From Niastella koreensis GR20-10 (lineage in GTDB: Bacteria > Bacteroidota > Bacteroidia > Chitinophagales > Chitinophagaceae), in assembly GCF_000246855.1 (NCBI RefSeq), contig NC_016609.1:1488001-1552000 (forward strand): a DNA stretch of 64,000 nucleotides, given 5' to 3'. Numbering within the stretch: position 1 is the stretch's first letter; every line of letters begins with the position of its first letter. Both the position numbers and the translations under genes were made by a program. Under the pieces are notes generated by a model. That model searched no databases. It saw only the letters and a program-made list of their open reading frames with translations, and was not told the DNA's origin. This document shows, piece after piece, positions 21,731 through 28,957 of the stretch.

Positions 21731-24700
21731 ATGGGTTCATCAAAAAAGCACATCGCTTTTCGGTTGCCGGTATTATTGATATTTTTTTATTCAGTAGGTT
21801 GTAAAACAAAAGAACGGGATACTTTATTTACGTCATTGCCCTCAACAGCGACAGGTATACATTTTATAAACCAGGTAAATGAAACAGACTCGACCCATTC
21901 ATTCATCAATGAGTTTGGATATATGGGTGGCGGCGTAGGCATCGGGGATTTTAACAACGACGGATTAAAGGATATTTATTTTACCGGTAACCAGGTGAGC
22001 TCAAAGCTGTACATCAATAAAGGCAATAACACATTTGAAGATATTACGGCAAAAGCTGGTTGCGGCACCAGCGGTTGGGCCACCGGCGTAAGCGTGGTAG
22101 ATATCAACAACGATGGCTATGATGATATTTACGTTTGTGTGTTTGGAAAGAATTTGCTGGAACGCGCGGCCAACCTGTTGTTCATTAATCAGCATGATCT
22201 GACGTTTAAAGAATCAGCCGCTGAATACGGACTGGCAGATACCGGTTACTCCACCCAGGCAGTGTTTGTTGATTACGACAAAGATGGCGACCTGGATATG
22301 TACCTCACCAATTATTTGCTCAGCAGCGCCAATGCCAACACTATTTATCCCCGCGATCAAACCGGGAAATCTCCCGCCAATGATAAATTGTACCGCAACG
22401 ATGGAGTAGTAGGGGAGGCTCATCACCCGGTGTTTACCGATGTGTCAATGGCTGCCAATATCAAAGATGATGGATATGGACTGGGTGTGGTTGTAAGCGA
22501 TTTCAACAATGATAACTGGCCGGATATTTATGTAGCCAACGATTTTCTATCGAACGATATCCTGTGGCTGAACAACCGCAATGGCACCTTTACCAATTGC
22601 ATTGCCCGCAGTATGCAACACCAGAGTTACAGCAGTATGGGCGCAGATGCCGCCGATGTAAACAACGACGGCCTGCCCGATGTAGTGACGCTGGATATGA
22701 TGCCCGAAAACAACGAACGCCGCAAACTCACCTGGTCGGTAATGAATTACGAACGCTACCAGGCCGAACGCTCGTATGGATATGAACCGGAGTTTATGCG
22801 GAATATGTTGCAATTAAATAATGGAAATTGGAAAGATACATTCTTGAGCTCGACAAATCGGAATGATGCCAATAGAGACGAGGCTACCAACACCTCCCCC
22901 ACCGGGGGAGGCCGGGAGGGGGCTCCGTTCTTTAGTGAAGTGGGCCAAATGGCGGGCATCTCCAGTACCGACTGGAGCTGGAGTGTATTGATGGCCGATT
23001 TTGACAATGATGGCTGGAAGGACATGCACATTACCAATGGGATTGGGCGTGATTTTATAAATGCCGATTTCCTGGAATTCAGTTCCACCGTAATGGGCAG
23101 GGTGAGCGATCTGAAACAACAGCGAAAGCTGATAAACGACAAACTCGCTTCCCTGAACCATGTTGAGCTGGGTAATTATTTGTATCGGAACAACGGCAAT
23201 TATACGTTCACCAATATCTCGCAACAGGCAGGGGTGAACGAAGCGTCGATGTCGAACGGCGCGGCCTGGGCCGACCTGGATAACGATGGCGACCTTGACC
23301 TTGTAGTGAACAATATAAACAAAGAAGCATTTGTGCTTATTAATGGTACCAATGCAAAGGGAAAACCGGTAACCAATCATTTTATTGGCATAAACTTAAA
23401 AGGCGGCGCTGCCAACCAACATGCCTTTGGCGCCAAAGTAAAAGTGTATACCGGTAACCAGGAGCAGGTACAGGAGCAAAATCCCGTGCGCGGATACTTC
23501 TCAACAGTAGATACCAAACTGCTGTTTGGAGTGGGATCGAATACACATATCGATTCCATTGTTACCATCTGGCCCGACAATACGTACCAGGTATTGCGGA
23601 AGGTGGCAGTGGATTCGTTATTGGAGATAACGCAACAGCCTGCACGAGAAACGTGGGAGAGCAGCACGAATGATCTGCAGGCTGTATTTTCAGACATTAC
23701 ACCAGCAACGCATATTAACTATCGCCATGTAGAAAGTAATTACAACGACTTTGGCGAACAACGATTGTTGCCCCAAAAGTTTTCGCAGTTGGGTCCGTAT
23801 ATAACAACGGCCGATCTCAATCACGATGGCCTCACCGACCTGTTCATAGGTGGGGCCTTTAATTTCTCCGGCCAGTTCTTTATACAACAACAAAACGGAC
23901 AGTTCAAAGCGCAGGCCCTTACCGATAGTATAAAAATGGAAGAAGACCAGGATTGTGTTTTCTTTGATGCCGATGGGGATGGCGATCCCGATCTGCTGGT
24001 GACCAGTGGCAATGTACAAATGGAAGAACATTCGCCCTACAACACACCGCGTTTATATACCAACGATGGCAAGGGACATTTTCACCTACAACCCAATGCT
24101 ATCCCGGCCAACATTCGCATTATTGCCGGCTGTGTACAAACTGCCGATTATGATGGGGATGGACAACCCGACCTGTTTATCGGCAGCCGCGTAAGCAAAA
24201 GTTATCCATTACCCGGCCGCAGTTATATTCTGCATAACAACAAAGGTGTGTTTACCGACGTAACCGCCATTGTATGTCCCGCCTTGCAACATCCCGGCAT
24301 GGTCACTTCCGCCGTATTTACCGACCTGAACAACGATCACCAGCCCGACCTGGTAATAGCAGGCGAGTGGATGCCCCTCCGGTTCTTTAAAAACGATCAT
24401 GGCCATTTACAGGAAATGAACACCGGGGTAGGAGGGCTGAGCGGCATGTGGCGCAGTCTGGTTGCCGCCGATGTTGATCAGGATGGCGATCTTGATTTGG
24501 TAGCCGGCAACCTGGGCATGAATTGCGATTACCAGGTGAGCGACAGCACGCCGATGGAATTATTTGCCGCCGACCTGGATGGCAATGGAAGCATTGACCC
24601 AATTCCTTTTTATTATATAAAAGACCACACGGGCGCCAGGCGATTGTATCCCGGCATTAACCGCCGCCAGTTTGCCGACCAGGTACCCGCCATCAAAAAA

Positions 24701-25168
24701 CAATTCCTGCACCATGCCCAGTATGCGCAGGCCACCTTTGACGATATTTTTAAACAAAAGGACAGTCTGCACCAGTACACCTGTACCGAAACCCACAGTT
24801 GCTGGTTCGAAAACGCCGGAAACGGACAATTCCGCCGCCATTACCTGCCGCCCGAGGCCCAGTTTGCCCCGGTAAATGCCATTTTGTGCGATGATTTTGA
24901 TGGCGACGGGGTTACCGATCTGCTGCTGGCCGGCAATGAATACCAGACCGAAGTGATGACGGGCCGGTACGATGCCAGTTACGGCTGCTTCCTTAAGGGG
25001 GTTGGTCATAAACAATTCCAGGCCATTCCGCCGGTGCGGAGCGGGTTCATTATGCGAGGCGATGTAAAAGATATGGCCCTGATAACCACCGCAAGGGGCC
25101 AGAAAATGGTGCTGGTAGCTGTAAATAATGATTACCTGAAGGTTATGGCCGTGAATCGTATGAAATAG
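21731..25168 (+). CDS. VCBS/FG-GAP repeat lipoprotein with ASPIC/UnbV domain
   Basis: An 1145-residue surface lipoprotein (lipobox YSVGC near residue 20). Multiple calcium-binding FG-GAP/VCBS blades appear, each with DxDxDG-like loops (DFNNDGLKDIYFTGN, DYDKDGDLDMYLTN, DADGDGDPDLLVTSG, DFDGDGVTDLLLAGN), probably forming one or two beta-propellers. An ASPIC/UnbV domain is at about 550-620 (FGAKVKVYTGNQEQVQEQN). Such proteins follow SusC/SusD pairs in many Chitinophagaceae and are thought to bind or process the same ligand; this is inference. It begins 16 bp after susD, so it is in the operon. A palindromic repeat is embedded at codons near residue 388-396. Confidence 0.88.
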   Translation: MGSSKKHIAFRLPVLLIFFYSVGCKTKERDTLFTSLPSTATGIHFINQVNETDSTHSFINEFGYMGGGVGIGDFNNDGLKDIYFTGNQVSSKLYINKGNNTFEDITAKAGCGTSGWATGVSVVDINNDGYDDIYVCVFGKNLLERAANLLFINQHDLTFKESAAEYGLADTGYSTQAVFVDYDKDGDLDMYLTNYLLSSANANTIYPRDQTGKSPANDKLYRNDGVVGEAHHPVFTDVSMAANIKDDGYGLGVVVSDFNNDNWPDIYVANDFLSNDILWLNNRNGTFTNCIARSMQHQSYSSMGADAADVNNDGLPDVVTLDMMPENNERRKLTWSVMNYERYQAERSYGYEPEFMRNMLQLNNGNWKDTFLSSTNRNDANRDEATNTSPTGGGREGAPFFSEVGQMAGISSTDWSWSVLMADFDNDGWKDMHITNGIGRDFINADFLEFSSTVMGRVSDLKQQRKLINDKLASLNHVELGNYLYRNNGNYTFTNISQQAGVNEASMSNGAAWADLDNDGDLDLVVNNINKEAFVLINGTNAKGKPVTNHFIGINLKGGAANQHAFGAKVKVYTGNQEQVQEQNPVRGYFSTVDTKLLFGVGSNTHIDSIVTIWPDNTYQVLRKVAVDSLLEITQQPARETWESSTNDLQAVFSDITPATHINYRHVESNYNDFGEQRLLPQKFSQLGPYITTADLNHDGLTDLFIGGAFNFSGQFFIQQQNGQFKAQALTDSIKMEEDQDCVFFDADGDGDPDLLVTSGNVQMEEHSPYNTPRLYTNDGKGHFHLQPNAIPANIRIIAGCVQTADYDGDGQPDLFIGSRVSKSYPLPGRSYILHNNKGVFTDVTAIVCPALQHPGMVTSAVFTDLNNDHQPDLVIAGEWMPLRFFKNDHGHLQEMNTGVGGLSGMWRSLVAADVDQDGDLDLVAGNLGMNCDYQVSDSTPMELFAADLDGNGSIDPIPFYYIKDHTGARRLYPGINRRQFADQVPAIKKQFLHHAQYAQATFDDIFKQKDSLHQYTCTETHSCWFENAGNGQFRRHYLPPEAQFAPVNAILCDDFDGDGVTDLLLAGNEYQTEVMTGRYDASYGCFLKGVGHKQFQAIPPVRSGFIMRGDVKDMALITTARGQKMVLVAVNNDYLKVMAVNRMK
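22893..22911. repeat. REP-like palindrome inside a coding sequence
   Basis: CCTCCCCC, a 3-nt loop, then GGGGGAGG form a perfect 8-bp hairpin, followed by CCGGGAGGGGG to 22922. It resembles the C/G-rich palindromic intergenic repeats of Bacteroidota. It lies in frame in the VCBS gene, encoding a Thr-Ser-Pro-Thr-Gly-Gly-Gly-Arg-Glu-Gly stretch between propeller blades. Confidence 0.6.
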
Positions 25169-25243
25169 TTTGCCCCGGACAAGGAAATTCAGCCATAAAA
25201 AGCTATTTTTGCGTCCCCAATGAAAGTTGGGGCAAAGTTCTTA

Positions 25244-25530
25244 GGACCGGTAGCTCAGTTGGATAGAGCAGCTGCCTTCAAATTACTAGGAGCCTTATAA
25301 GGGAAACGAAACCTTATAAGTGGATGCCACTATATCGGTGAAACCTTCCTGCGCAAGCAGATGGCAATACCGAGGAAACCTGCAAGGGGTTCCGTAGAGA
25401 CTACACGTGGCACACCTGAAATGGTGAAGATATAGTCCAGACCACAAATCCTGGCTGTAAGTCGGGAGCAGGGAAACCTGTAGAGGGTAAGCTAAGCAGC
25501 AGGTCATTGGTTCGAATCCAATCCGGTTCA
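25244..25530 (+). tRNA. tRNA-Arg(UCU), interrupted by a group I intron
   Basis: Exons 25244-25278 and 25492-25530 join to a complete 74-nt cloverleaf. The acceptor pairs GGACCGG with CCGGTTC, with discriminator A at 25530 and no encoded CCA. The D arm is GCTC/GAGC. The anticodon stem is GCTGC/GCAGC with loop CTTCTAA, giving anticodon TCT at positions 34-36. The variable region is AGGTC and the T arm is ATTGG-TTCGAAT-CCAAT. The short variable arm rules out serine or leucine. A TATTTTTG word (TAnnTTTG, the Bacteroidota -7 element) lies at 25204-25211. A terminator follows at 25551. Confidence 0.93.
25279..25491 (+). ncRNA. Group I intron (IC3/Azoarcus-like), self-splicing ribozyme
   Basis: A 213-nt intron without an open reading frame, lying between tRNA positions 34 and 35. 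The 5' exon ends in U and the intron ends in G, as group I splicing needs. Hallmarks, in order: a three-base guide GAG (in AGGAGCC) that can pair with exon CUU, giving the required U-G pair at the splice site; a P2 hairpin of CTTATAAG arms; the P element (TCGGTGAAACC); the Q element (GGCAATACCGAG); the R element (GTAGAGACTACACG); and the S element (GAAGATATAGTCCAG). GACTA and TAGTC form P7. The order and wording closely parallel the Azoarcus tRNA-Ile intron as I remember it. A short intron with no homing endonuclease is expected to splice alone in the presence of guanosine. Confidence 0.92.
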
Positions 25531-25550
25531 CGAAATTGGATCAATAATTC

Positions 25551-25575
25551 AAAACCCGCTCTGGTAGCGGGTTTT
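25551..25575 (+). terminator. Rho-independent terminator of the tRNA gene
   Basis: AAAACCCGCT, loop CTGGT, AGCGGGTTTT: a perfect 10-bp stem with its own terminal T-run, 20 bp after the tRNA 3' end. The symmetric A/T ends mean it could also act on the opposite strand. Confidence 0.88.
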
Positions 25576-25648
25576 GTGTTGTAATACACTGGTCTGTATT
25601 AAAGTATTTATGTATAATCAGATGGATCAGATTATTCTCAATGATTTC

Positions 25649-25668
25649 TGGTTCGAATCCAATCTGGT
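25649..25668 (+). repeat. Fragment of a tRNA 3' end (T-arm duplicate)
   Basis: TGGTTCGAATCCAATC is identical to 25508-25523 of the tRNA-Arg gene, and the next TGGT differs by one base from CGGT. The rest of a cloverleaf is missing, so this is not a tRNA gene. Such T-arm fragments are often left by integration at a tRNA gene, though no integrase is nearby. Confidence 0.6.
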
Positions 25669-25929: not shown

Positions 25930-28707
25930 TTATTCTTTCCAGACAGGTATAGATACTAAATTGTTATTGCCGGTGGAAACAATGAAGTAGCTTCCTGTTG
26001 CCAGGGACGTAACGTCGATACGGGTTTGGGTTATGCCTGCCGCAACGGGAATGGTACGCCATACCCTGCCATCAACGCCAATTATTCTTACGTAGGACGT
26101 ATGATTGGTAACCGGGCAGGTAACCGTAACCGGTGTATTGCCAGTGATCAAACTGGGATATACATTGAACGGCTGTTCATTATTGTTATTGAACAGAATA
26201 ATGGGGCTATAGCGCACTATGCCGCTGTTTTCAACCATTTGTAGCCGGTAGTAAACAGCCCCTGAAGGCCCATGCATGTCTGTCGCTGTATAATTATTCA
26301 CGGTGTTTTCTGTAGCCGTTACCCGCTGTACTGGCGTAAACACAATGCCATCTGTGCTTCGTTCAACGAGATAATAACTAATGTTCTCTTCATTGGTGGC
26401 TTGCCAGTGCAGTTGAACAGTACCGTTTTTACGCTGACCGCTAAAATGCAACAGGGTTTCTGCCAGTGTAGAACAGGCGCTCAGCGTAAGGCTTTTGCTG
26501 GTGGTGCTGGTACAGCCGCCTACGGTGCTGGTAACTGAAATGATATATTTTCCGGTATCCAAAATAGAGACAGGGTTCAGCACAAGGGTATTTCCGGTGC
26601 TGAAGTATCCGCCGGGCCGCTGCCAGGAGTAGCTGAAGAAAGGGCTGGAAGGAAGGCTGAGCACGGCGGCGCCTCCAATACAGGTACTACCGGTGGTGAC
26701 CACATTTGGTACCACCAGGGTGTCGATGGTAATGCTGCGCGAATAACTGTTGGCGCAGGCGTCGGTCATCAGGAACGTATACGTGCCGGGGGCAAGACCG
26801 GTGAATGCAGGACTTGCCTGCAGCGGCGTGGCATAGGGCCCGTTGAGGATCTGGTATTGAAACGGCAGTATCCCGCGTGTGCTGTCGGGCAGCAATGCTA
26901 CCTGCCGGGTGGCCCCGCAAAGGGCAACGGCAGCAGCCGGATTGAACAAGGGCTGTGTATACACAGGGACAACGATGGTATCGGTAACAACATCACACCC
27001 CCAACTGCTCATGTCGTTAAGGAAGGTTGGATTATAAGCAGTACTGTAGTGGTAGGCGGCATAGTAGGTCCCGGGCGAAAGATTCGTCACCTCATCACTG
27101 AAAGAGGGACTATTAGCGCCTTTGTTATAGATCGAATTGACCGTGATGGTGCCATCGGGAAATGCAGAAGACCAATATGTGTTGGTTGAAGCAAACAGCA
27201 GGATCTTACTGGCGTTCGTACAACCTTTTACCAGCGATGCGGAGAACGGGGAATGGCGTAGATCACCAGGTCCTATAGTAACCATTACACTGTCTTGCTC
27301 GCCGCACGTGGTAATGGCGATTATTTTATAAGTGCCTACGGTAAAATAGTCCAGCAACACCCCGTTGAATGTTACATTTTTTATGGTATCAGGATAGGTC
27401 AGGGGATGCACCGTGCCATCGACAGTTGTCATGGAAGAAGGGCCTGATGCCACCACGATGTACCCCTGCCTGGAGTTGAAATTGAAATTCATTTGCAGAC
27501 CTGTTGTTCCTTCCTTGCAGGAGGCGTATATCATCGGGAAGGCATTGGTAATATGAAATGCAGCTCCGCCTGCCCAGTCGAACTGCAGGGAATCTTTCTG
27601 GCAGCAATCCTGCCTGATCACTTTATATCCCGCAGCGGGTGGAAATCCTGAAAACGTTGAGTTATTGGTCTGTGTAGCCAGGATGGCGCCGGTGGGGCTT
27701 ACCAAGGTATAGGTAATGGTGCTGCAATGCTTGGAGGAAGGGAATTGGCTGTTGTCATTATATTGATCAAATGTATAGGCGAATTGACCGCTGCAACCGG
27801 GTAAAACGGCGGAGTTGGCAACCATATCGAACCCCTGTAGATCAAGAATAATGACAGCGGAACCGGTTACGCCGCAATTATTGGTGACGCTTACGGCCAT
27901 GGTTTTGTTATCGCCCGGAATATGGTGATACTTAAGCGTGAACTGGCTTGTAATATCGCCGAAAATGTCAGGGGTATTGACCGTATTCGTAGTAACGGTG
28001 CCATCGGGCCCTGTCAACGAAACGGTATAAGGGGGCTTGAAACCGTTTATAAAACATTCAACATTACAGGCAAAAGAATCGCAACCCAGGTATTGGAGGC
28101 CTGCCGCAGCAATCGTCACACTACTGGTGCTTGCATTGAGCGTTACCACCCTGGTTTGAAAATTACCGCACGAGTCGATCACCTTGCAGGTATAGTTGCC
28201 GGCGGGGAGGTTGGTAAATACATTGTTGCCTGCAGATAGCCCCGCGATAACAGGCGATGGGCTCACCAGCGAATCTATAAACGGCCCGCGGCCATCGGTA
28301 ACATGGAAGGTTATAGAACCATCGCTGCTCGAAGAACAGCTGGGCGATTGCGTGGTAACATCCAGTGAGGGAACCGTGTACGTACCGGTTACTGTAAAAT
28401 TACCGGTAACAGATGTATTACAACTATCGGTTACCTGTACGGTATAGCTGCCCGGCGCCAGCGATTGCAAAATATTCGACGATTGCGGCAGTGATAAAGC
28501 GGGGCCCGCAACAATACTGAAGACATAAGGGGTAGAACCACCCGATACCGATACAGTAGCTTTTCCCGTGGCGGCGCAACGGCTTTCAGTAGAGTTAATC
28601 GAATTAATAGTCAGGGGTGTGGCGGCAGGGCATTGGGCCTTTGCCTTTTGCATAGTAGCAATGATCAACAGCACGCAAAGGATTGCATGGTTTAGGGTAT
28701 GGTTCAT
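25930..28707 (-). CDS. Secreted SprB-repeat-like protein with T9SS C-terminal sorting domain
   Basis: A 925-residue exported protein. The ATG at 28707 is chosen because a signal peptide (HAILCVLLIIATMQKAKAQ) follows directly; an in-frame ATG 26 codons upstream would put it internally. Repeated Ig/SprB-like modules (GSYTVQVTDSCN, GNYTCKVIDSCG, GTYTFLMTDACAN) fill the first 720 residues. A fibronectin-like segment (about 770-850, LHWQATNEENISYYLVERS) precedes a type A sorting domain (about 860-925; FNVYPSLITGNTPVTV, TSLATGSYFIV). The sorting domain directs export by the type IX system and attachment to the cell surface. Likely an adhesin; the ligand is unknown. Confidence 0.85.
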   Translation of the reverse strand: MNHTLNHAILCVLLIIATMQKAKAQCPAATPLTINSINSTESRCAATGKATVSVSGGSTPYVFSIVAGPALSLPQSSNILQSLAPGSYTVQVTDSCNTSVTGNFTVTGTYTVPSLDVTTQSPSCSSSSDGSITFHVTDGRGPFIDSLVSPSPVIAGLSAGNNVFTNLPAGNYTCKVIDSCGNFQTRVVTLNASTSSVTIAAAGLQYLGCDSFACNVECFINGFKPPYTVSLTGPDGTVTTNTVNTPDIFGDITSQFTLKYHHIPGDNKTMAVSVTNNCGVTGSAVIILDLQGFDMVANSAVLPGCSGQFAYTFDQYNDNSQFPSSKHCSTITYTLVSPTGAILATQTNNSTFSGFPPAAGYKVIRQDCCQKDSLQFDWAGGAAFHITNAFPMIYASCKEGTTGLQMNFNFNSRQGYIVVASGPSSMTTVDGTVHPLTYPDTIKNVTFNGVLLDYFTVGTYKIIAITTCGEQDSVMVTIGPGDLRHSPFSASLVKGCTNASKILLFASTNTYWSSAFPDGTITVNSIYNKGANSPSFSDEVTNLSPGTYYAAYHYSTAYNPTFLNDMSSWGCDVVTDTIVVPVYTQPLFNPAAAVALCGATRQVALLPDSTRGILPFQYQILNGPYATPLQASPAFTGLAPGTYTFLMTDACANSYSRSITIDTLVVPNVVTTGSTCIGGAAVLSLPSSPFFSYSWQRPGGYFSTGNTLVLNPVSILDTGKYIISVTSTVGGCTSTTSKSLTLSACSTLAETLLHFSGQRKNGTVQLHWQATNEENISYYLVERSTDGIVFTPVQRVTATENTVNNYTATDMHGPSGAVYYRLQMVENSGIVRYSPIILFNNNNEQPFNVYPSLITGNTPVTVTCPVTNHTSYVRIIGVDGRVWRTIPVAAGITQTRIDVTSLATGSYFIVSTGNNNLVSIPVWKE

Positions 28708-28957
28708 TGTTTTGTTTTCTGGGTGTGGAAATCGGATTTTTATTGAACGGTATCCAAGGCGGCCGCAAGGTATTTTTTTTAACATTACAGGAAGATCAAA
28801 ATACTTTGATGTTGCATAGACGTGATTCTATAAATATAGAAGCCCCGGCAAAATATCGGGACTCATTTTATCAAGAAATATTCTTATATCATCATTGCTG
28901 CTCGTAAGCGCCCATGTCAATCAATCCATTCACTAATGATCTCATGCCCTGGGCTTT

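Follow-up and report, generated by a model that had tools for sequence, protein, structure and literature searches.

A group I intron splits tRNA-Arg(UCU) of Niastella koreensis at an anticodon-loop site that is also occupied in at least eight phyla and in phage tRNA genes

Group I introns of bacterial tRNA genes are assigned chiefly to cyanobacteria, besides a few alpha- and beta-proteobacteria, by the relevant section of a 2014 review (PMC4033280), tRNAscan-SE 2.0 names fMet and Ile2 as tRNA introns in the pertinent part of its description (PMC8450103), and the corresponding passage of a further review, which names the tRNA-Ile intron of Azoarcus, locates phage introns so far in protein genes despite the many tRNA genes of phages (PMC3984707). 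Closest by host are the putative group I introns in tRNA-Arg-TCT of Beggiatoaceae, which share with the locus described below the host tRNA, the putative intron type and the absence of the tRNA from the annotated genes, but which belong to Gammaproteobacteria and are known from a description as putative, given in the available excerpt without structure, endonuclease, distribution or insertion point; the same excerpt reports Thiomargarita as lacking an AGA tRNA (PMC4853749). The alphaproteobacterial introns in tRNA-Arg(CCU) of Agrobacterium and Bartonella (BbgpI), the latter of which splices in vivo and self-splices in vitro, are likewise group I introns in an arginine tRNA, but interrupt another isoacceptor, and the accessible portion of their description mentions no endonuclease (PMC7717549). 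The Synechocystis tRNA-fMet intron with I-Ssp6803I, finally, shares the fold and family (PF11645) of an endonuclease carried by relatives of the intron under study (PMC1995217; 2ost), but resides in another host tRNA. A literature search for tRNA-Arg(UCU) introns in Bacteroidota, Bacillota and phages found none, which, with subscription journals mostly outside the search, is weak evidence of absence.

The window analysed here, a stretch of 64,000 nucleotides of the Niastella koreensis GR20-10 genome (G000:C1:1488001-1552000 of a single contig of 9,033,684 bp, 9.03 Mb), carries an intron of this kind. A first-pass annotation of the DNA had read a tRNA-Arg(UCU) gene that is split by an Azoarcus-type group I intron and whose exons give a cloverleaf, and this reading is confirmed: the gene is interrupted between U34 and C35 (Table 1), and on the joined exons ARAGORN calls tRNA-Arg(tct), a cloverleaf with the UCU anticodon, with zero tRNA called on the unspliced window without intron mode.

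Table 1. Features of the split tRNA-Arg(UCU) gene, its intron and its surroundings, in window coordinates
Feature	Position	Strand	Basis or remark
Possible -7 element of a Bacteroidota promoter, TATTTTTG	25204..25211	+	32 nt before the tRNA; inference only
tRNA-Arg(UCU) gene, split	25244-25530	+	ARAGORN on joined exons
5' exon, tRNA positions 1-34, ends CUU	25244..25278	+	ARAGORN, exons joined
Azoarcus-type group I intron of 213 nt, without endonuclease gene	25279..25491	+	RF00028, covariation, empty sites of congeners
UAG, P10 partner of 3' exon CUA	25287..25289	+	71/109 relatives fully paired
GAG, internal guide (P1), pairs with 5' exon CUU, U-G at the splice site	25290..25292	+	sequence
P2 hairpin, 25294-25302 with 25312-25320	25294..25320	+	covariation
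P3 5' strand, partner 25407-25412	25325..25330	+	covariation
P4/P5 domain with P and Q elements	25336..25372	+	covariation table
P4 and P5	P4 25336-25339 with 25369-25372; P5 25344-25345 with 25363-25364	+	
P6, 19 nt in the window	25375..25393	+	site of the PDDEXK_5 gene of relatives, between about 25379 and 25388
P7 5' strand in R element, partner 25433-25437 in S element	25399..25403	+	RF00028 alignment
P8, 25413-25416 with 25423-25426	25413..25426	+	covariation
P9 hairpins; P9b 25469-25480 with GAAA loop	25449..25480	+	covariation
Terminal G (omega G)	25491	+	sequence
3' exon, starts C35	25492..25530	+	ARAGORN, exons joined
Hairpin 3' of the tRNA, probable terminator	25550..25576	+	by eye

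Upstream of the split gene lies a frame of 1145 aa (21731-25168, +), downstream of it one of 951 aa (25930-28785, -). TATTTTTG before the tRNA fits TAnnTTTG, the -7 motif of Bacteroidota promoters, and the same eight bases also precede the tRNA in the relatives' loci L080, L089 and L043. A 20-nt piece resembling a tRNA 3' end with its T arm (25649-25668) follows the split tRNA at a distance of about 120 nt and is perhaps a relic of a similar insertion. Two other readings of the interruption were discarded, the ARAGORN intron-mode call of a tRNA-Leu(caa) at 25244-25531 as a register error, and enzymatic splicing of the archaeal type on account of the full ribozyme core.

RF00028 is the top-scoring Rfam match of the stretch, aligning 25269-25460 over model positions 1-253 at a score of 38.3 bits (E 2.4e-8, 471 nt searched). 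The covariance check proposed by the first-pass annotation thus gives a hit by E-value that falls short of the gathering score of 50, which is also why Rfam at default settings returns no match for the window. None of 200 shuffled sequences folds as well as the intron (z -3.77), which possesses the conserved core from P3 to P8 with the P, Q, R and S elements and P7 in the RF00028 alignment, together with covariation in P2, P3, P8 and P9b. The guide GAG facing exon CUU, the P7 pairing and the terminal G are all as first proposed, the splice-site U is paired with a guide G, and a P10 pairing (UAG with CUA) was found in addition. The intron is assigned to the Azoarcus type, presumably subgroup IC3, by likeness to the Azoarcus tRNA-Ile intron, namely a small ribozyme with a 3-nt guide, a P2-P9 layout and an anticodon-loop host, with the difference that the Azoarcus intron occupies another tRNA in another phylum.

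The implied rarity of such an intron is not borne out. A scan of named genomes with a pattern that combines the S element, the 3' junction and the T loop gave at least 119 loci, and at least 109 of them (109/119 among the matches listed), in at least eight phyla, represent tRNA-Arg(UCU) split after U34, in addition to which the putative Beggiatoaceae introns are in print (PMC4853749). Of the 109 listed loci, 45 fall in Bacillota, 26 in Pseudomonadota, 24 in Bacteroidota, 6 in Chloroflexota and 5 in Acidobacteriota, and Schekmaniibacteriota, Rhodothermota and Mycoplasmatota have one each. Many of the records are metagenome bins, and these counts represent a lower bound, not prevalences. Of the 119 listed loci 111 were parsed, with L120, L149, L159, L169, L174, L175, L176 and L186 left out (in L120, L149 and L169 the match lies near the end of the locus, and L169 is called tRNA-Arg), and removal of L118 and L179 as bad parses led to the 109. 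Both alignment anchors were present in 106 of 110 introns (the 109 plus the window); the intron tree comprises 105 rows (without L139), and the covariation and clade tests comprise 103 (without L139, L150 and L190).

Scored on the helices drawn on the window, the 103 introns, the window included, preserve pairing through compensatory change in P2 (877/912 cells paired, 209 double-change cells, against a shuffled mean of 73%), P3 (595/606, 141 double-change cells), P8 (412/412, 23 double-change cells) and P9b (386/412, 140 double-change cells). P4 (502/509 cells) and P5 (195/202 cells) are equally paired but show four and two double changes only, and the register drawn on the window is not kept across the relatives in P5a (143/389 paired) and P9.0 (175/309 paired). 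P7 is invariant in the same set, partly because the search pattern fixes part of P7 along with the CUAA after the junction, so that conservation at these positions is not independent.

The guide reads GAG[CT] in 107/109 relatives among the matches listed, and P10 is complete in 71/109 of them versus 3.5% of random triplets. P10 follows the host tRNA, being UAG with CUA in 70/109 introns of tRNA-Arg, UUU with AAA in 5/9 introns of tRNA-Leu(UAA) and UAU with AUA in one phage intron of tRNA-Ile(UAU). The tRNA-Leu(UAA) introns, known from cyanobacteria and plastids and compared here on Bacteroidota loci (such as L047, L231, L238, L260 and L270), share the insertion after U34, the 5' exon CUU and the guide GAG, and thereby uphold the claimed match in position, 34/35, with tRNA-Leu introns; they differ in the 3' exon AAA with its P10 partner, and in a P6 of 27-70 nt in the six measured. 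As CUU ends the 5' exon in the Arg, Leu and Ile tRNAs alike, one intron could move between these hosts by reverse splicing. Two tRNA-Leu(UAA) introns exceed 700 nt (L236, L269) and contain HNH-like frames by eye, that of L269 without a Pfam hit.

Judging from this anatomy and the known chemistry of the class, the guide UAGGAG in the transcript would pair with CUU of the 5' exon in P1 and with CUA of the 3' exon in P10; attack of a bound guanosine after U34 would free the 5' exon, which would in turn attack after the terminal G, joining U34 to C35 and restoring the UCU anticodon. That the intron splices tRNA-Arg(UCU) and belongs to a homing family, of which the window copy represents a stage of the cycle without endonuclease, is very probable. 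What the computation establishes directly are the two exons, a ribozyme architecture with covarying helices, precise empty sites, and endonuclease genes both intact and broken. Small Azoarcus-type tRNA introns are efficient self-splicers, which speaks against the need for a host protein to splice the intron in the cell. The Bartonella tRNA-Arg(CCU) intron, which self-splices in vitro, points the same way, while the paper that describes it presumes such a need to some extent for group I introns (PMC7717549); on balance, dependence on a protein appears rather unlikely.

Far less credible is a dead pseudogene with AGA being read by another tRNA. An uninterrupted tRNA-Arg(UCU) elsewhere in the genome, named by the first-pass annotation as evidence against its reading, is found neither among 63 RF00005 matches in the genome nor by BLAST of the spliced gene, which detects no second full copy; the other arginine tRNAs have the anticodons ACG (two), CCG and CCU. 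The anticodon call of ARAGORN is unclear in L077 and L063 and five RF00005 hits of L076 were uncalled, which might leave such a reading some room, but upon direct reading none of the seven is UCU. A scored share of 150 out of 481 first-look tRNA candidates in the genome likewise leaves slight room for a missed UCU copy. AGA, on the other hand, is in regular use, with 62 of 587 arginine codons in 20 large ORFs of the window, and exons and ribozyme helices are intact. The pseudogene reading was thus rejected: with no other UCU tRNA found, the split gene presumably must be spliced, and the window intron would persist because imprecise removal would destroy the sole AGA-reading tRNA gene that was found. 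As default Rfam and tRNA scans miss the window intron, such a genome can look as if it were without an AGA tRNA.

The five copies of L076 (G000:C1:3650795-3651509) are near-identical 63-nt tRNA-like sequences with defective anticodon loops situated between two tRNA-Lys genes.

A search of other Chitinophagaceae for the empty and the filled tRNA, as initially suggested, finds both within one genus. The intron is present in five of ten genomes (G000, G004, G006, G007, G009), and the other five (G001, G002, G003, G005, G008) possess an uninterrupted tRNA-Arg(tct). Four of the five empty sites have the upstream flank of the window in common (74-89% DNA identity over 770-950 bp) and the fifth its downstream 700 bp (96% identity); the filled sites of G006 and G007 align with the window over only ~110 bp upstream (74%). 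In the family, a covariance match occurs in 19/394 genomes, 16 of which have it in tRNA-Arg(UCU) (12 read by eye plus G000, G007, G209 and G221) and two in tRNA-Leu(UAA) (G144, G410), with the host not assigned in the remaining one (G152); G406 harbours a tRNA-Leu(UAA) intron besides its Arg intron. Phylum-wide, 29/395 genomes match, and the hosts read include tRNA-Arg(UCU), tRNA-Leu(UAA) and an initiator-type CAU tRNA. At the empty site of G003, a second tRNA-Arg 3' half with a 3' exon of the window type (L043:1504-1540) lies ~570 bp downstream of the intact gene, and the arrangement, with a lipoprotein-like frame in between, resembles the scar of a small inserted element.

The window intron has no endonuclease gene and its genome is without a PF11645 match; the homing endonuclease that characterizes a mobile intron is encoded in its congeners G004, G006 and G009, and the window copy is not filed as a mobile intron itself. 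In these three and in G030, the P6 loop contains a frame of 139-165 codons, ~138 from the likely start. The P6 proteins of two relatives belong to PF11645 (PDDEXK_5; 100.8 and 117.7 bits at a cut-off of 26.1), a nine-row profile of the P6 endonucleases finds 2ost with E 8e-4, and an AlphaFold model (pLDDT 84) has 2ost, I-Ssp6803I, as its best match (E 1.1e-9, TM 0.77), in keeping with a PD-(D/E)XK fold. A single endonuclease sequence searched against solved structures gave weak, unrelated hits only, and a plasmid protein search with one Bacillota endonuclease gave no match. PF11645 is matched in 29/394 family genomes, strongly (E below 1e-20) in 13, and 12 of these 13 strong matches sit in tRNA-Arg(UCU) introns by eye; the locus of the strong match L091 shows no R element.

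Among the matches listed, 33/109 introns carry the P6 endonuclease: in 23, spanning five phyla, the frame reaches 138 aa or more, and in 10 it is broken. The other 76/109, including all 26 of Pseudomonadota, are without. In 33/33 endonuclease-bearing introns the TAG of the R element also terminates the reading frame, so that endonuclease gene and ribozyme share sequence. By eye, 16 of the 76 endonuclease-free introns spell DYREVP or a near form before this TAG, stretches that may be read as endonuclease relics, though P6 pairing could favour some of them. The window and Longitalea luteola (G007) have the same 19-nt P6 with no clear endonuclease relic, and the window intron could accordingly descend from a form that never had an endonuclease. 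Other nuclease families also occur, with a LAGLIDADG match at the same site in L160, an HNH match in the viral L297 and HNH-like antisense frames by eye in L114 and L184, the latter without Pfam support.

By analogy with homing, the P6 endonuclease of relatives would cut an intronless tRNA-Arg(UCU) gene in its anticodon loop and repair would copy the intron in, with the window copy as a stage in a cycle of endonuclease gain, decay and loss; the DNA-cutting enzyme present in many copies probably helps the intron to spread. Since endonuclease-bearing, broken, endonuclease-free and empty alleles coexist at the site, the cycle by which a bacterial tRNA intron homes becomes directly testable.

Whether the distribution reflects lateral transfer, as the first-pass annotation had suggested, receives a divided answer. 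Empty beside filled sites in one genus and Bacteroidota introns that do not form one clade argue for transfer, while introns that largely cluster by phylum and a single Bacteroidota endonuclease clade that is not rejected argue against it. In the intron tree of 105 rows, 12 label changes are required for eight groups, with a minimum of 7 and a shuffled mean of 52.6. A single Bacteroidota intron clade is rejected (p 7.7e-6, 103 rows), a result influenced by long branches, by metagenome bins (L193, L121) and by two long rows, L114 and L184, and a single Bacteroidota endonuclease clade is not rejected (p 0.198). Transfer across phylum boundaries is likely, though less frequent than spread inside a phylum. 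The clustering by phylum, the unrejected endonuclease clade and the preponderance of copies without an endonuclease gene (76/109 listed, with 10 of the other 33 broken) would also suit an old ancestral intron that was lost many times, with homing of minor significance today. Such a history, however, accommodates poorly that within one genus the same locus is filled in some genomes and empty in others, that 23 open endonuclease genes have been kept in five phyla among the matches listed, and that one Bacteroidota intron clade is rejected, with the reservations on branches and bins given above, and we consider it improbable in comparison with an intron spread by homing.

Phage genomes extend this picture. 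The same pattern gave 17 hits in viral contigs, 13 of which are split tRNA-Arg(UCU) genes (L301 tied with another reading). One of these records, the 82.6-kb contig with L287, combines a terminase match with a T4-type capsid gene (E 1.3e-72); the other 12 show no capsid match, and a terminase match is present only in the record of L294, the broken endonuclease of which is identical to that of Pullulanibacillus L197, which suggests host sequence adjoining a prophage. In LR745208, a 485-kb uncultured phage assembly, a tRNA-Ile(UAU) is split at 34/35 by a group I intron with guide GAG (L328:307-592). One intron site is thus occupied in at least eight phyla and in phage tRNA genes, wider than the relevant sections of the reviews state (PMC4033280, PMC3984707).

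Relatives of the endonuclease were encountered at 24 viral loci, and at 22 of these they are free-standing with a tRNA-Arg(tct) no more than 500 nt away; in 18/22 the tRNA ends 30-68 nt before the endonuclease gene, with several loci being near-copies of each other. Among isolated phages, the order of tRNA followed by endonuclease recurs in Synechococcus phage Sf-FR1 and in Acinetobacter phage Herod. Two loci, L316 and L317, have tRNA-Arg(UCU) and endonuclease together inside the anticodon loop of another tRNA-Arg(UCU), the outer halves of which still pair (acceptor 7/7, anticodon 5/5, T stem 5/5), and as only ~15 bases precede the inner tRNA there is no room for a ribozyme; the other loci of this set show weaker or no outer-tRNA pairing. 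A PDDEXK_5 relative also directly follows a split tRNA-Arg(UCU), outside the intron, in the viral contig of L286 (L286:4066-4800). The endonuclease tree unites 24 intron rows and the phage row L304 in one group (93/92), with three Acidobacteriota intron rows outside at an unsupported placement, and 12 of 17 phage rows in a second group (95/86); with a very distant outgroup the position of the root is uncertain, and L286 sits among the rows labelled as intron, yet its gene follows the split tRNA.

An evenly balanced proposal, for which we see about as much in favour as against, is that a lineage of I-Ssp6803I type has specialised on the anticodon loop of tRNA-Arg(UCU), housed in P6 of introns in bacteria and free-standing beside an intact tRNA in phages, with some cassettes inside, and replacing, a broken tRNA. 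In bacteria, the endonuclease would ride in P6 of a self-splicing intron, as suggested by the open genes in five phyla, whereas the phage cassette of tRNA and endonuclease would replace the tRNA-Arg(UCU) gene it breaks, without splicing out. Phages, some of which also bear a split tRNA gene, would shuttle the lineage between phyla, and the window intron would be an endonuclease-free descendant. It is equally testable whether the same kind of cutter spares its host by means of a ribozyme or of a spare tRNA. The mechanism of the window intron is that of a known class; the surprise is the wider system at this tRNA site, above all the phage cassettes, and the phage-linked system looks new.

Several further loci deserve mention in their own right. 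In a distant relative (G696), an intron of tRNA-Arg(UCU) resides two bases further, at 36/37 by eye (L254:1003-1745), with a fitting guide GGA and a PDDEXK_5-like gene, representing either an independent insertion or a shift of site. An initiator-type tRNA(CAU) is split between U33 and C34 (L249:1018-1768) and comes with a close I-Ssp6803I relative (E 1.2e-57 to 2ost), the gene of which precedes the ribozyme core instead of lying in P6. In G069, a tRNA-Leu(UAA) gene and its group I intron occur in the same order (L047:1133-1590), preceded by a second copy of the 5' exon. Downstream of the intact tRNA-Arg(UCU) of the family member G016 (L054:1466-2217), each of several tandem units of ~335 bp combines a tRNA-Arg(UCU)-like copy with a frame for a GIY-YIG nuclease (PF01541).
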